This document shows positions 14,240-54,810 of a stretch of DNA of 64,000 nucleotides, one piece after another. Numbering within the stretch: the first letter of the stretch is position 1; each line of letters begins with the position of its first letter. This stretch comes from Leisingera sp. S132 (lineage in GTDB: Bacteria; Pseudomonadota; Alphaproteobacteria; Rhodobacterales; Rhodobacteraceae): positions 826,501-890,500 of the forward strand of contig NZ_CP083553.1 of the NCBI RefSeq assembly GCF_025144465.1. The letters run 5' to 3'. A program made the position numbers and the translations under genes. The notes beneath the pieces are model-generated. The model worked only from the letters and a program-made list of their open reading frames with translations. It did not search any database and was not told the origin of the DNA.

Positions 14240-14692
14240 ATGAGCGACGAGATTTCCACCAGCGCCGAGGCGGCAGAGGCGGCGGTGCTGCCCTGCGTGC
14301 ATGAAGTCCATTCCGACCCGGATGCCTGTGCAGGCCTGACCAAGGTGCCGGAGAAGCTGCAGAAACCGGATGCCGCCAAAAGCCCGGCCCGCTGGGCCTA
14401 TGAAAGGCTCATCCTCTATATCCAGAACTTCGAACAGCAGCTGGATGCCGAACACGAGGTCGCCATGGGCTTCGCCGGCGGCAATACCGGCGTGCTCAGG
14501 ATCGAGGGCATGGGCTATTTCGATCCCGACATCATCACCTTCTACGGCAGTGAGCCGGACGGTTCGAGAACCCAACTGGTGCAGCATGTGAGCCAGCTCA
14601 ATGTGATGCTGCGCTCGGTGCCCAAGCCGCGTGAGGAGGAGCCTGCCACCCGCATCGGCTTCCGCCTCGCCTCGGACCTGCAGCAGGAGTGA
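14240..14692 (+). CDS. DUF6173 family protein
   Basis: A 150-aa soluble protein of unknown function found in alphaproteobacteria. The conserved part begins around SPARWAYERLILYIQNFE and runs through MGFAGGNTGVLRIEGMGYF, YFDPDIITFYG and VQHVSQLNVMLRSVPK. No catalytic motif, signal peptide or membrane segment is visible. The ATG at 14240 follows a strong AGGGGAGG ribosome-binding site. It is 26 bp downstream of the MBL hydrolase gene and could share its transcript. Confidence 0.85.
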   Translation: MSDEISTSAEAAEAAVLPCVHEVHSDPDACAGLTKVPEKLQKPDAAKSPARWAYERLILYIQNFEQQLDAEHEVAMGFAGGNTGVLRIEGMGYFDPDIITFYGSEPDGSRTQLVQHVSQLNVMLRSVPKPREEEPATRIGFRLASDLQQE

Positions 14693-14855
14693 GCCGCACG
14701 ATTCGCCGCCCGGGCCTCCGCCGCAGGATTCGCAGCGGTTTTCTGTGGTTTCCGGGCGGCATTTCCACCGGATGCGCCCGAATGACGTGGTGACAGCGCG
14801 CGGCAAATCCGGTAATCACCGGGAAAACGCACGTGAATTTTGAGGGATAACTCAC

Positions 14856-49575: not shown

Positions 49576-49669
49576 TCCGCCGGCCTGACCGTCTGTCCCG
49601 GTTGCGCGCTGCAGGCCAAGGGGCTCTGTTGCACAAATCGGCTGATGGCCGGTGTTCCCCTTTCCCCGG

Positions 49670-49674
49670 GCAGA
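49670..49674. repeat. GCAGA target-site duplication, left copy
   Basis: GCAGA immediately before TGTATGACCC at 49675. The same five bases directly follow the element's right end (53769-53773), as expected of Tn7/Tn5053-type transposition. Confidence 0.75.
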
Positions 49675-49738
49675 TGTATGACCCGCGAAAACGTGACCAT
49701 TTTGGGGTTTTCTGACCATTGTGACACGGGTTTAATGA

Positions 49739-49772
49739 CCACCGGCCGCGACGCGGCCGGTGGTTTCTTTTT
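49739..49772 (+). terminator. Strong hairpin terminator inside the element's left end
   Basis: CCACCGGCCGCG, A, CGCGGCCGGTGG followed by TTTCTTTTT: a 12-bp stem with T-tract. It would stop transcription from plsC/host genes entering the element. Confidence 0.85.
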
Positions 49773-49974
49773 AAAACAATGTCATAGGTGCCGGTTGCCT
49801 TTTGCCTGCTGACGAGGCCGGTTCGCCTGACCAAGCCCGCTGTGCCTGTTGACTGAAACCGCTGTTACGAGCAGGACTGCAGATCAAACCTGGCCAGGTT
49901 CTTTCCTTCACTTACCCGAGCACACCCTGTGCAATCGGGAGCCAGACGGCGCATTGCGCGGGAAAGGGCCAGAT

Positions 49975-51072
49975 ATGTCCAAGATCAAATTCATCGACGC
50001 AGAGTTCCTAGATGCCGACAAAGAACGTCGGGCAATACGGCGGCGCCTGGAGCGGTTTCTGATAGAACGGCGCGTATCAGAGCGCGGCGTTGTGCCTCCG
50101 GAACCGGAGGATCCGGAGGACGTCCTGCGGTGGGAAACAGACTTGATGGAGGTTCGTTTCGAGCGCGAAGTTCAGGACCGGATAGACCGCCGGGTGAACA
50201 GGCTGGCGGAGCGGCGGGAAGCGGCTGCAGGCCTCGTACACCTGAAGCGCGATGACCGAAGGGCGCTCGAGGGTCTGCGCAACGGGGTGAGCCTGATCAG
50301 GATCCGGACAGAAGACCAAGCGGATGAAATCGCCGCAGGTTTTCATGCCGGCATGCCCTGGATGGCACCTGCGACGGATCTCTTTTGGAAGTCGATGCGG
50401 CGATCCGTCCGCAACGGGGATTCGGGCTTTCGCTTGCCTCCGGTGCTGCTGGACGGCCCGCCGGGGATCGGCAAAAGCATGTGGGCCCGTCAACTGAGCA
50501 CAGCACTTTGTGTGCCCCGCTGTGGCGTAGAGGCGACGGCAGAGCAGGCGTCGTTCGGCATCGTGGGCTCCCAGCGCGGTTGGGCCAACGCACAGCCGGG
50601 ACGCCCTTTGATGACGATCCTGAAGCATCTGATCGCGAACCCGATTGTCGTTGTGGATGAGGTGGAGAAGGCCGGGGTCGCAACTTCGGTCAAAGGGAAC
50701 AGCTTTGGACTTTCCGAGGGACTGCTGTCCCTTTTGTTGCCATCCTCAGCGGCATCTTGGCAATGCCCCTATTATCAGGTCGGGTTCGACATGTCCTGGA
50801 TCAGCTGGGTGCTGACCAGCAACACCTTAACAACCTTGCCAGCCCCTCTGTTAAGCCGCCTGTAGGTCATAAAGCTGTCACCTGTCCCGGTGCCTGACCT
50901 GGTAGCCTTTGCCCGCCGTGAGGGCGGCAGGCGCGGGTTGGCTCAAGCGTCTGTCGAGGCCGTTGTCGAGGTGCTGGAGATTTCTGGTCAGACAGTGCCG
51001 TTGAGCTTGCGGCATGTCATCCGGATGCTCACCCGGGGGGAAGCGTTGGAGGCGGCTCGGCTTTTTCATTGA
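49975..51072 (+). pseudogene. AAA+ ATPase with in-frame amber stop
   Basis: MSKIKFIDAEFLDADKERRA... at ATG 49975 runs 296 codons to a TAG at 50863-50865 (after PAPLLSRL), then the same frame continues 68 more codons (VIKLSPVPDLVAFARREGGR...) to 51072. Walker A GPPGIGKS is at 161-168, Walker B VVVDEVEK at 225-232 (D228, E229), with a sensor TSN later. An Arg/Glu-rich coiled-coil-like N-terminus (~1-95) precedes it. The last part looks like the usual AAA+ lid helix. The fold is closest to Lon/bacterial AAA+ proteins; I cannot assign it to TniB. The TAG is a nonsense mutation unless suppressed. It lies upstream of tniQ in the element. Confidence 0.75.
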
Positions 51073-51118
51073 ACATGCAATTTCTTTAAACGTTGAGCTT
51101 TGCTGGAAGGAGCCGCAT

Positions 51119-51364
51119 ATGGCCAGCCGAAATCATTACATCACTGTTGAAGCGCAGCGCATCACGGAGCGGTTTCCCGAGGTGTATGGGCCTCCGCCTT
51201 GGAGCATCAAGAAGACAAGCCTCGCTTGGGGCTTCGCCTGTGGCGAGGGCTGGTATCCTCTGATTGAGCGCCTGAGTGCAGATCTCGCCGACATCATACG
51301 TGAGGATGGTCTGACACGCTTCCGGGCGCAGCAGGTTAAACAGAAACTGGGTGAGTTGCGGTGA
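51119..51364 (+). pseudogene. Small conserved hypothetical gene, truncated by the IS3 element
   Basis: MASRNHYITVEAQRITERFP... (81 codons). The part SIKKTSLAWGFACGEGWYPL and ...LSADLADIIREDG resembles a widespread phage/plasmid hypothetical family whose C-terminus normally continues past a 'QVKEKFGGLRFY'-like motif; here it reads QQVKQKLGELR and stops at TGA 51362-51364, formed by the IS3 end. The 3' end is therefore lost, probably with the 5' end of tniQ, when the IS inserted with adjacent deletion. Function unknown. Confidence 0.55.
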
Positions 51365-51395
51365 TCAGCCCCACTTGAGCGGTCCAATTTGATTG

Positions 51396-51665
51396 TTAGT
51401 GCATGACCGGCCTTTGGTCCATCTGGACGATGGTTTCCGGGGCCGGAGGGCGGTAGCCCAGAGCACTATGTGGGCGTTTCGTGTTGTAGTGTTTCCTCCA
51501 TTCTTCGATCAGGATTTGAGCTTCTCGCAGGCTGTAGAAGATTTCGCCATTCAAGAACTCATCCCTGAACCGGGCGTTGAAGCTTTCACAGTATCCGTTC
51601 TCCCAGGGTGAGCCGGGTTCGATGTAAGCCGTCTTTGCACCGACGGCTTTGATCCAGTCCTGCAC
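51396..51665 (-). pseudogene. IS3-family OrfB (DDE transposase) C-terminal remnant
   Basis: MQDWIKAVGAKTAYIEPGSP..., ...GYCESFNARFRDEFLNGEIF..., RPHSALGYRPPAPETIVQMD: the rve integrase-core C-terminal part of an IS3/IS407 transposase, with the last catalytic Glu region (ENGYCESFNARFRDE). The first two-thirds are deleted. Directly upstream in another frame is the end of OrfA's leucine-zipper tail (RLQKENERLRAAITSQRPIF), so the deletion joins OrfA to OrfB sequence. Confidence 0.8.
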
Positions 51666-51793
51666 GGCCTGCGCAACGAACTCCGGGCCATAGCACGTCG
51701 GGAAGATTGGCCGCTGAGAGGTTATGGCCGCGCGCGCAGCCGCTCGTTCTCTTTCTGAAGCCGCTTCAGTTCCCTCAATTGATCAGTGCCCAT

Positions 51794-51988
51794 TCATTCC
51801 ACCGTACCCTTCGCATCGCGCTCGAACCAGTGGCGCTGCGATGCTCCGATCTTCCAGCGGTAATAGGTCTGTTCAGTCACGCCAATCTGCCGGATCGCAT
51901 CCAGACGCGGCATTCCTTGCGCGGTCAGTATCTCAACCTGCCGCAACTTCGTGACAATCTCTTCTGGCGTCGGTCGCTTGTTGGCCAT
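51794..51988 (-). pseudogene. IS3-family OrfA (helix-turn-helix) remnant
   Basis: MANKRPTPEEIVTKLRQVEI..., TAQGMPRLDAIRQIGVTEQT, YYRWKIGASQRHWFERDAKG, the DNA-binding N-terminus of an IS407-type OrfA. The frame ends early, at residue 64, where relatives continue into a leucine zipper; that zipper is still readable downstream (LRELKRLQKENERLR). A small indel has broken the frame. Confidence 0.75.
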
Positions 51989-52044
51989 GCGTTTCCTCCG
52001 TTTTACTAAACATAGCGGAGGACCACTTCAGTGGGGGAGCCTCA

Positions 52045-53574
52045 GTGACTGGGCCGGTTACCCGCTTTTGTCCTTCCTGTTTGGCGGAGGATGCCGCGGG
52101 TGTTGCGCGTCCCGCCGCCATGTGGCGGCATCGGTTGATCTGGACCCTGTCCGTGGTCAGGGTCTGTCCCGTGCATCAGATCCCTTTGCTCAGTCACCGC
52201 GGCGGGAATTGGGACGACGGTGCGCATGAACTTCAAGCGTTGCCTTGGCAGAGCGATGCCTTGGCGGTTGGACGTCAGGCCTCGCCGTTGCAAGGATATG
52301 TAGTTGCCAGACTGGCGGGCGCTTCTGGCCCCGCATGGCTCGAGGGCCAAGGGATCGAGCAGGCCGTCCGTGCCACCGAAATGCTGGGCGCGGTCATCGC
52401 GTTCGGATCCGAGCAGAAAGCCTCCAACATGACCGAAAACATGTGGGATGAAGCCGGACGCGCGGGGTGGGCGGCGGTGAGCGAGGGAGAGACGGCGATC
52501 CGCGCCACCTTTATGGATCTACTGAAACGCGCCGAGACCAAACCTGGCCCCACTCACCCCAAAACAGCTTATGGCATGCTCTACGCTTGGATGTCCGCAT
52601 CGCGGTTTTCGAAGGATCCCGGGCCCATCCGCGCCCTTCTTCAAGAGCCCATCCTCGATACGGCCCCCCTGACGAAAGGTCAGATCCTCTTGGGCAGCCC
52701 TGTTGAGGCCCCCCGTGTCAGCAGTGTGGCGAAGATCGCAGCCGGAGAACTCGTACATCCGAGGACGCTCCGGAACCTGCTCGCCGACCAAGGGGTCATC
52801 TCCGCCTCTGACCGGGAGGCCCCGTGCGGCCATATCTTCCTGCGCTACGATGATGCGCGCCCGTCCATTCGAATGCTGAAGCATGCAGTGCCGGTCAGCC
52901 GTTTGCCGGGGTTGCTGGGGGCGTCCCGCCCCATGGTCTCAGCCCTTCTTGAAATCGGTGCACTCACGCGGCTGACGGGGGTCGAGGCGGCTTCCAGCAA
53001 GATGAGCAAGGCGGTCGATGGGCTGGAGATGGCGGCTTTCCTTGAGGGGATGCAGGCGCGCCTTCCTGAAGTCGCGGAGAAACCGACGACCATGGTGACG
53101 CTCGCCAAGGCTGCAGAGAAGGGGAGGGTAAAGCTGTCCGTCATTCTATCGATGTTGCTGCAGGGGCGCTTGCAGCGTGCATGCCGTTTGGCTGGTTCCC
53201 CTAGCCTGTCGGCCGTTCTCGTGGATCCTCGGGAGATCAAGTCGAAGCTTGCGCTTCCCCGTCCTGGGATGAGCGGGGAGTTGGCGCTCATCATCTTCGG
53301 GTTCGACCCCTCACGAGGCCGCCGAGTATTCTGCCATCCCAAGGCAGAACCGCTGATCGCATCCGAGCCTTACGGCGAGGACGTCTGGGTTTCGCCAGCG
53401 GCGCTGGAGAACTTTCGGCAGAAATACGTGGCCAAGAAGAGGCTGCCCTTGATCATGGGCGTGCGACCGCTCGCCATCGAGAAGTTGCTTCGGGAACGCG
53501 GGGTCAAGCCGATCTGGGATTCAAAGGAGTTCGGTGCCGCCATCTATGAAAGGGTAGACCTGCCCACGGTTTGA
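52045..53574 (+). pseudogene. tniQ: TniQ family protein, 5'-truncated by IS3
   Basis: A 509-codon open frame whose product begins in VTGPVTRFCPSCLAED: the zinc-ribbon part of TniQ, with CPSC and later CPVHQIPLL. TniQ family proteins guide transposition of Tn5053/Tn7-like elements (TnsD/TniQ, also the Cas-associated ones). The family's ~90-residue N-terminal segment is missing: the IS3 end lies immediately upstream, and the GTG at 52045 is the first codon after it. The rest is a long helical region without other named motifs. A terminator at 53601 follows. Confidence 0.75.
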
Positions 53575-53600
53575 TCCCGACACCACCGACTTTGAAATCG

Positions 53601-53626
53601 ATGCCGCCGAAAGGCGGCATTTTCTT
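53601..53626 (+). terminator. Terminator after tniQ
   Basis: ATGCCGCC, GAAA, GGCGGCAT then TTTCTT: an 8-bp stem with T-rich tail, 26 bp after the tniQ stop. Between it and the element's right end there is only AT-rich sequence with TGACC-type repeats. Confidence 0.75.
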
Positions 53627-53768
53627 GCAAAATCGATGGTCATTTGTCCTGTGCCAAAAGGTCAGACTGGCCGCCCGAAGTTCGGAGGGCATTATTTATA
53701 TTTAGTTATTTCAATGACTTAAATTTTTTTCGAGTGACCCCAATGGCGTATTTCAGGTGGGTCCTACA

Positions 53769-53773
53769 GCAGA
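53769..53773. repeat. GCAGA target-site duplication, right copy
   Basis: GCAGA immediately after the ...GGGTCCTACA right end. Pairs with 49670-49674. Confidence 0.75.
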
Positions 53774-53774
53774 C

Positions 53775-54747
53775 TTATCCCACGGGCTCTGTGACAGGGA
53801 TGCCGAGCGCAGTGTAGCCGTTCAGAACGGCGATACGGACCTGAAGCTCCGCGACCTGTCGGTCGAAGTCCCGCGCCATGAGGCGCTGCCCCAGCAGTTT
53901 CACGCAATGCATCTTCGTTTCGACGCGGCTTCGGCGGTGGTATCCGCTCCATCGTCGCCAGAGGGCACGACCGAGGTATTTCGATGCCCGCAGTGCTTCG
54001 TTTCGTGCGACCGCGCCGGCGGTGACGGTCTTCCACGGTTTGGCGTTCTTGCGGGGCGGGATGACAGCGTGGGCGCCGCGGTCAGCGATTGCATCGTGGC
54101 ATTTGCGGGTGTCGCAGGCACCGTCGGCAGTGACGCTGCTGATCTGCTCGTACGCCGGGATCTGGTTGAGCAGGCCGGGTAACACCGGCGCATCGCCGAT
54201 ATGGTCCCTGTGATCTCTACGGCCCGAACCTCCAGCGTTTCCTCATCAATCCCCAAGTGGATCTTGCGCCAGACGCGCCGCTTGGGACCGCCATGCTTGC
54301 GGGCGTGCCGCTCGCCTTCGCCCTCGACCTTGATGCCCGTGCTGTCCGCTGCCCGGCAGTGCATCACGCAGTGATGTCACGAGAGGGGATCAGCAGGTGC
54401 AGTGGGCCCTTCGACCCGCGATACGGGATGTTCACGGCCAGGGTCTTCTGACGGCGGCTCAGCGTGCTGAAGTCGGGCACCGACCAGTCGAGGCCGACCA
54501 GCCGCAACAGGCTCTCGACGAAGCCTGTCGTCTGCCGAAGCGCCATGCCGAACAGCACCTTCATCGAAAGGCATGCCTGGATGGAGGCATCGCTGTAGGT
54601 CTGCTGGCGGCCACGCTTGCCTGTCGGCGCGGCATCCCAGCTCATCTCAGGGTCAAACCAGATCGTCAGCGAGCCGCGGCGCTTGAGCGCTCTATTGTAG
54701 GCTGGCCAGTTCCTGGTCCTGTAGGTCGGGGGTGCAGGTCTGCTCAT
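53775..54747 (-). pseudogene. IS5-family transposase, frameshifted
   Basis: Three segments in order: MSRPAPPTYRTRNWPAYNRA... (54364-54747), DSTGIKVEGEGERHARKHGG... (to ~54200), and GDAPVLPGLLNQIPAYEQIS... through SRVETKMHCVKLLGQRLMAR to the stop at 53775. Together they make a ~310-residue IS5-type DDE transposase (RSRVETKMHCVKLLGQ near its end). The first junction is a 41-bp insertion (54347-54387) between HLLI and DSTG; the second is a frameshift near 54200. It cannot be active. A 4.1-kb element is inserted 2 nt past its stop codon. Confidence 0.85.
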
Positions 54748-54810
54748 GCATCCCAGCTACCACGCTGGATTCATGAGATGAATCCCACACGGAATTTGTG
54801 CAACAGAGCC

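Follow-up and report, generated by a model that had tools for sequence, protein, structure and literature searches.

A 4.1-kb element of Leisingera sp. S132 as the probable remnant of a nrdJ-homing Tn7-type transposon family with an accessory Lon-type ATPase

A stretch of 64,000 nucleotides from Leisingera sp. S132 (hereafter the window) carries a 4.1-kb element at positions 49675 to 53768. This element very probably belongs, in gutted form, to a Tn7-type transposon family from Rhodobacterales that often inserts behind nrdJ, the gene for the B12-dependent ribonucleotide reductase, presumably by means of its TniQ protein, and that carries an accessory ATPase of the AAA+ type. The left arm of the element (49675-51362, 1.69 kb) is 92.5% identical to an element behind nrdJ in a genus-mate (genome G007). 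The right arm (52046-53768, 1.72 kb) aligns over 1736 bp, at 88.5% identity, with the last five-sixths of tniQ plus the right end in genome G322. Both matches end at a remnant of an IS3-family insertion sequence. Judged from this comparison, the window element consists of the two intact ends of a larger Tn7-type transposon, the middle of which has been deleted. An initial sequence-only reading had regarded the combination of TniQ with the ATPase as a possibly undescribed arrangement. The arm comparison with G007 and G322 identifies it as the leftover of an internal deletion instead and, since that deletion joined the arms, finding both genes together is a by-product and not a design. The 4.1-kb element itself is a decayed derivative of modest interest, and the family behind it is a new Tn7-type variant with an accessory ATPase.

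The insertion of the element into an IS5-family insertion sequence is real. The interrupted IS5 copy spans positions 49622 to 54810, is bounded by perfect 17-bp inverted repeats (49622-49638 and 54794-54810), and both pieces of its transposase match the NCBIfam IS5 family. The 5-mer GCAGA lies on the plus strand on either side of the element (49670-49674 and 53769-53773) and is present once in the uninterrupted IS5. We fetched 20 of 26 matching IS5 copies. One was the window itself, and all 19 others align uninterrupted through the site; the letters of the 5-mer vary among them. One of these 19 empty sites, from the same genome (G000:C1:2338565-2339601), is 100% identical over 1037 bp, with the site uninterrupted and a single GCAGA; an 8-bp tandem repeat in the other flank distinguishes it from the window. 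Because the target is identical to this copy over such a length, the insertion looks young. Chance can be excluded for the ends and the duplication, since relatives show the same type of end and likewise a 5-bp duplication. The TGT...ACA-type ends, the GCAGA duplication and the insertion 2 nt after the IS5 transposase stop, as described in the sequence-only reading, are all found in place, the duplicated 5-mer starting at the second nucleotide past the stop.

The left end (49675-49764, plus strand) consists of the terminal TGTATGACCC, repeats and a hairpin; the nrdJ-site left end of G007 matches it at 94% identity. Three repeats resembling TnsB sites can be read in it on the plus strand (TGACCATT at 49694-49701 and again at 49713-49720, TGACCACC at 49736-49743), and a 13-bp hairpin followed by a T-run (49738-49764) is a likely terminator. 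Such a hairpin just inside the left end was found in all 11 left ends that were folded. The right end (53635-53768, minus strand) comprises repeats and the terminal TGTAGGACCC and matches the right end of the 37-kb element in G322 at 82% identity over 149 bp. Its repeats are located on the minus strand at 53635-53642 (TGACCATC), 53657-53664 (TGACCTTT) and 53742-53747 (GCCATT), and the right terminus GGGTCCTACA is present, ending at 53768. By analogy with Tn7, these repeat arrays would be bound by TnsB. A search for the right end in 15 genomes returned near-full matches only in G322 and in the window's own genome, and five other matches were partial (E 5e-16 to 8e-4). The end repeat itself occurs in several versions (TGCCATT, TGACCATT and TGTCCATT). 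Among left ends, those of loci L029, L071, L137 and L142 differ in this respect from those of the window, L077 and L078-L082, and among right ends those of L030-L032 differ from the window and L107.

Between these ends the element is damaged at several places. The gene for a Lon-type AAA+ ATPase without a protease domain (49975-51072, plus strand) is broken by an in-frame TAG at 50863-50865, a position that is open in the seven relatives compared. The following cargo open reading frame (51119-51361, plus strand) is cut off in the window and whole, with about 139 amino acids, in the G007 relative. The deletion is marked by the 0.68-kb IS3-family remnant (51363-52044, minus strand), which contains an orfB piece (51396-51665) and an orfA piece (51794-51988), and no target duplication could be seen flanking it. 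Behind the remnant lies the C-terminal part of a TniQ/TnsD protein (52045-53574, plus strand). About the first 95 of some 604 residues are gone, and the remaining protein covers only positions 104-142 of the 142 positions of the Pfam TniQ domain. The event marked by the remnant would therefore, on comparison with the relatives, have removed everything from the cargo frame to about residue 95 of TniQ, while both ends were kept. No match to TnsA, TnsB or TnsC was found in the window and, with TniQ truncated, the window copy fails as an autonomous Tn7-like transposon. TniQ and an AAA+ ATPase are both there, as had been read from the letters, but the loss of the TniQ N-terminus, the nonsense codon in the ATPase and the IS3-family remnant had been missed. 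The description of the element as a non-autonomous or decayed member is correct.

Two complete relatives with both ends on one contig were found, a 34-kb element in G010 and a 37-kb element in G322. Their gene order is left end, Lon-like ATPase, variable cargo, tnsA-tnsB-tnsC-tniQ and right end. The G322 element begins 24 nt past the nrdJ stop, extends over 37 kb to its right end and is flanked by TCGGG on either side. The G010 element begins 20 nt past the nrdJ stop, extends over 34 kb and lies between two copies of GAGTT. Genomes G008 and G013 carry elements away from nrdJ, the two ends of which are on separate contigs and share a 5-bp duplication (GCGAA and ACTTC, respectively); the gene order agrees with that of G010 and G322 as far as the contigs extend. 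A shorter element is probably present in G183, where nrdJ, the ATPase and tnsABC-tniQ lie within about 20 kb. In G010 tnsB, tnsC and tniQ are all open, and TnsB matches Pfam Mu-transpos_C (E 1.1e-5, above the cut-off) and rve (E 2.5e-6, below Pfam's cut-off). TnsC of G322 matches Pfam TniB (E 4e-16) and its TniQ matches Pfam TniQ (E 1.8e-18); in the subgroup of the window type, TniQ has about 510-616 amino acids. For TnsA, a profile of 15 proteins found the Tn7 TnsA structures 1f1z and 1t0f as best PDB matches (E 0.0016), a weak but specific hit, and three of these 15 proteins gave no Pfam match at 0.01. The TnsA motif reads VKP in some relatives, with what is presumably the catalytic lysine of Tn7 TnsA, and VRP in the subgroup nearest the window. 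The nearest plasmid matches to the family are from Leisingera.

By their gene content (TnsA-TnsB-TnsC-TniQ) and 5-bp duplications, the full-length relatives class as Tn7-type. Elements of the Tn5053/Tn402 type have TniQ, a TniB-like AAA+ protein, a 5-bp duplication and TGT...ACA ends, and their genes are arranged as tniA-tniB-tniQ without tnsA, accompanied by a tniR resolvase gene and a res site. In contrast, the full relatives described here carry a TnsA homologue and many of them home to one gene. Of the initial assignment as Tn5053/Tn7-type, the Tn7-superfamily insertion therefore stands, and the Tn5053 type has to be given up.

The attachment gene was identified as nrdJ by NCBIfam, Pfam and PDB matches. 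The left end starts 18-27 nt behind the nrdJ stop in all 24 survey rows with a placeable end motif (21 distinct loci), in one orientation. This is the same geometry as that of Tn7 at glmS, where insertion is described about 20 bp behind the stop (PMC2918618). A census of the upstream neighbours of the ATPase, based on the best 80 of 209 relatives, placed nrdJ within 1.5 kb in 23 cases, IS66 TnpB in 22, a metallophosphoesterase in 5 and none of these in 30. Seventeen of the 23 ATPase copies on the nrdJ side start 316-339 bp from nrdJ. The spacing survey took in 17 of these 23 rows (not all of them the same 17), one as the duplicate L077; L184, L217, L219, L223, L235 and L236 were left out, and the left-end motif was not found in L217, L223, L235 and L236. 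A separate genome set contained 19 genomes with the ATPase behind nrdJ, duplicates having been merged by eye. Insertion at this site separates nrdJ from the DNA beyond, and the hairpin with T-run of the left end would probably terminate nrdJ transcription. We found no report of nrdJ as a Tn7-type attachment site in the open-licence papers searched, which is no proof of absence; the terms "ribonucleotide" and "nrdJ" do not occur in the main text of PMC10293859, PMC8649781 and PMC11406308. Among the papers that the searches listed, one about Pseudomonas MucA names nrdJ.

Relatives of TnsB were detected in 38 of 295 genomes at E <= 1e-40. We searched for nrdJ in 38 genomes, 34 of them from this TnsB list, and obtained matches in 32. 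In 10 of the 38 genomes nrdJ is located upstream of tnsB on the same contig and strand within about 33 kb (G009 and G010 were placed by loci). Three of these linked pairs come with the ATPase (G322, G183 and G010) and seven without it (G009, G292, G131, G282, G107, G029 and G291). A whole-genome search of the seven, in which up to 8 candidates were scored per genome, gave only matches at the level of Lon itself (E about 1e-11), apart from two cases: G009 has a 51% fragment at a remote position, and G282 a weak match to the N-terminal part on a different contig. The interval from nrdJ to tnsB was found to contain no ATPase in six of the seven genomes; in G131 the first 19 kb of its 26 kb were covered, likewise with no ATPase found. 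Since seven elements occupy the nrdJ site without the ATPase, nrdJ homing goes with TnsABC-TniQ. From Tn7 and from these relatives, which share TnsABC-TniQ, we infer that the long, TnsD-like TniQ directs insertion behind nrdJ. If the Tn7 scheme applies, TnsB would bind the end repeats, TnsA and TnsB would cut, and TniQ would bind the end of nrdJ and recruit TnsC. In a further genome, G243 (L247, 5144-10462), tnsB and tnsA point toward nrdJ from a distance of 1.8 kb, opposite to the ten linked elements.

The ATPase is represented by a relative of 365 amino acids, in which a Lon-type AAA+ module carries an additional helical part at the N-terminus and the chain stops where the AAA+ part ends. 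Its Lon character is supported by NCBIfam lon (E 5e-16) and by AAA+ domains of Lon as the best hits in the PDB (E 1.5e-16) and with Foldseek (E 2.7e-17), the structure model having a predicted local distance difference test score (pLDDT) of 90.5. Compared with Lon protease, the AAA+ module is shared, while the protein has its own N-terminal part and no protease domain. Indeed, the window protein matches only positions 356-490 of the 795 positions of the lon profile and has no C-terminal protease domain. The motif residues are kept, including GPPGIGKS, and we take them to represent Walker A (GPPGIGKS), Walker B, sensor TSN and arginine finger. The remark in the sequence-only reading that this ATPase is not an evident TniB agrees with the profile, PDB and fold matches. 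The ratio of nonsynonymous to synonymous substitution rates (dN/dS) was 0.11-0.24 in 11 pairs, three of them including the window copy, indicating purifying selection. The gene sits about 300 bp inside the left end, at the far end from the transposase genes.

The ATPase is present in 17 of the 38 genomes with TnsB and in 14 of the 257 without (judged by eye, limit E 1e-30). The ATPase occurs in every one of the six genomes with a TnsB of at least 50% identity, in four of them on the same contig; that of G154 belongs to a stacked neighbour behind the right end, and that of G210 comes after a metallophosphoesterase. Distances of the ATPase correlate with those of TnsC (r 0.76 for 14 elements, three of which were joined across contigs by assumption; r 0.88 for the 11 without assumed joins; r 0.63, p 0.005, for 8 dereplicated elements) and with those of TniQ (r 0.86, 11 elements). 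Two swaps were observed. G170 and G183 are 71% identical in the ATPase and 31% in TnsC, and G195 and G265 are 75% identical in TnsC and 46% in the ATPase; G170 and G265 were each joined across contigs by assumption. Taken as a sequence pattern, this suggests that the ATPase has mostly been co-inherited with TnsC. The ATPase is nonetheless an accessory component, being absent from seven related elements at the nrdJ site. It marks a real subclade of the nrdJ-homing Tn7-type elements, and in this sense the initial hint that it was unusual was a good one.

The ATPase may be ordinary cargo, for instance a defence or maintenance gene, that happens to adjoin the left end, and we rate this only slightly below an even chance. 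The seven nrdJ-site relatives without the gene fit this explanation, as do the two swaps and the other settings of the ATPase family in the census, which occurs behind IS66 TnpB (22/80), behind a metallophosphoesterase (5/80) or without any of the neighbours sought (30/80). However, other cargo is variable, whereas this gene keeps a fixed place some 300 bp in from the left end, as seen in the narrow range of 316-339 bp from nrdJ in 17 of 23 cases, and its distances track those of TnsC and TniQ. In addition, PADLOC returned nothing for the ATPase of G322 and, for that of L039, only weak hits to AAA domains. If the ATPase has an active role, the most likely one may be remodelling of the transposition complex, by analogy with ClpX, with plain cargo at least as likely. 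ClpX, another unfoldase, has been described to raise the activity of Tn7-type I-F CRISPR-associated transposons (CASTs), which is thought to occur via disassembly of the post-transposition complex (PMC12326709, PMC10761935). We also advance, as rather unlikely, the idea that the ATPase is an unfoldase of the element's own, which would dismantle the complex after joining in the manner of ClpX or would give access to a second target pathway for insertions off nrdJ. The seven relatives without the ATPase and the presence of its family in other settings weigh against it. To our knowledge, no such unfoldase factor has been known from a Tn7-type element.

The window element sits off the usual nrdJ site, in IS5, and it was either gutted after the full element had entered IS5 or moved there in trans as an already gutted element. 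The nrdJ site of the same genome is occupied by another left end with the ATPase (L029), and no TnsABC-TniQ was found near it in the 36 kb examined, about 28 kb of which lie beyond that left end. Loss of the middle before a move in trans is conceivable, although we lean away from it. The insertion looks young by the identity of the target IS5 over 1037 bp, yet the element has a nonsense codon and a deletion, and both ends and the duplication are intact. On the other hand, the deletion may likewise be young, because the IS3 remnant has perfect matches (100% identity) elsewhere in the genome over two overlapping stretches, at element positions 1896-2067 and 2060-2370. Moreover, the only TnsB match of the genome at E <= 1e-40 is distant, with 33% identity, and the element beside it has different end repeats (judged by eye). 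Movement by a TniA-type enzyme encoded elsewhere, as proposed at the outset, thus finds no close transposase in the genome. The ends of the window copy could still move with cognate TnsAB in trans, but as no close TnsB was found in the genome, the copy is probably stranded now.

Several observations weigh against a gutted member of a nrdJ-homing family. No examined locus has a complete element with both ends near those of the window in one genome; the left arm is nearest to a genus-mate and the right arm to another genus. In G007, which provides the nearest left arm, neither TniQ nor TnsB was matched. In the other 28 of the 38 genomes nrdJ and tnsB are on other contigs or far apart, nrdJ has no match or, in G243, the two are close but reversed. 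The insertions off nrdJ (the window, G008, G013 and three plasmid records) are not explained by a nrdJ pathway. The TnsB of G322 has an in-frame TGA and this element may itself be dead, and the TnsA assignment rests on a weak profile match. That TniQ and the ATPase work as a pair in a functional non-autonomous unit is very improbable: they share element and orientation, and both have low dN/dS values that point to purifying selection (0.11-0.24 in the 11 ATPase pairs and 0.18 for TniQ, window against G322), but the window TniQ is truncated, the ATPase carries a TAG, the junction between them is the IS3 remnant and the two genes are 31-34 kb apart in the complete elements of G010 and G322, so that for the window copy the pair is already refuted unless the truncated TniQ is active. 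Equally, we give hardly any credence to the ATPase as the protein that picks the nrdJ site, and dropped this candidate in spite of its strong association with nrdJ (23 of the best 80 of 209 relatives), since seven elements occupy that site without it.

The family of gutted and complete elements outlined above shares with Tn7 the proteins TnsA, TnsB, TnsC and a long TniQ-family protein, the repeat-array ends, the 5-bp duplication and insertion at a conserved gene; it differs in the attachment gene, nrdJ instead of glmS, and in the Lon-like ATPase inside the left end. Tn6022-type elements are likewise described as Tn7-type with an extra gene beyond TnsABC and TniQ, namely TnsF, which is related to tyrosine recombinases and encoded in an operon with a short TniQ (PMC10293859). 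Here, TniQ is long (about 510-616 amino acids in the window-type subgroup) and the additional gene, located at the far end, encodes an AAA+ ATPase, which a search for genes in an operon with tniQ would miss. Surveys of tniQ-adjacent genes would overlook an extra ATPase at the opposite end of the element. With nrdJ, a gene joins the short list of Tn7-type safe harbours in a large marine order; those listed in PMC11406308 include glmS, tRNA genes, parE, guaC, yciA, ffs and rsmJ, and comM is a further attachment gene according to PMC10293859. Should the ATPase turn out to assist transposition, it would be the natural equivalent of ClpX, which increases CAST activity in human cells. The 4.1-kb copy is a natural mini-transposon showing which end sequences were kept.

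Some further observations concern other settings of these genes. In the window genome, an ATPase relative directly follows IS66 TnpB, behind an open reading frame in the place of TnpA (L086, 7610-9478; G000:C1 about 3133609-3135477), a position after TnpB at which the IS66 transposase TnpC is expected; a serine-recombinase-like frame was seen by eye upstream. A Ketogulonicigenium plasmid (NC_014626.1; L099, 9758-14688) carries a row of DUF6634, IS66 TnpB, metallophosphoesterase, Lon-like ATPase, DUF6634, metallophosphoesterase and an uncharacterised protein; a similar operon-like row occurs in L076. Such rows are possibly another kind of mobile or defence unit. At three loci (L031, 7730-8283; L038, 1353-2146; L084, 9682-11247) a left end with the ATPase or a piece of it lies directly behind the right end of another element. 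We infer stacked insertions, with the newer one located between nrdJ and the older one in G010.

A conserved stretch without an assigned gene (GATAGCAAATCCGGC...GGATTTCAAGGACGGCGACTG...) precedes tnsA in L030 (about 14440-14720, minus strand) and the ATPase gene in L039 (1200-1460); it has no Rfam match at the gathering threshold. Rfam searches of four loci gave two matches, neither of them in an element end. An ALIL pseudoknot (RF01497) was found at 13240-13394 of L029, in an IS3-family-looking element near the second left end of the window genome. Finally, the record JAHVJD010000005.1 (L160), titled Nocardioides marinus DP1N28-1, contains Leisingera-like DNA and is probably mislabelled.

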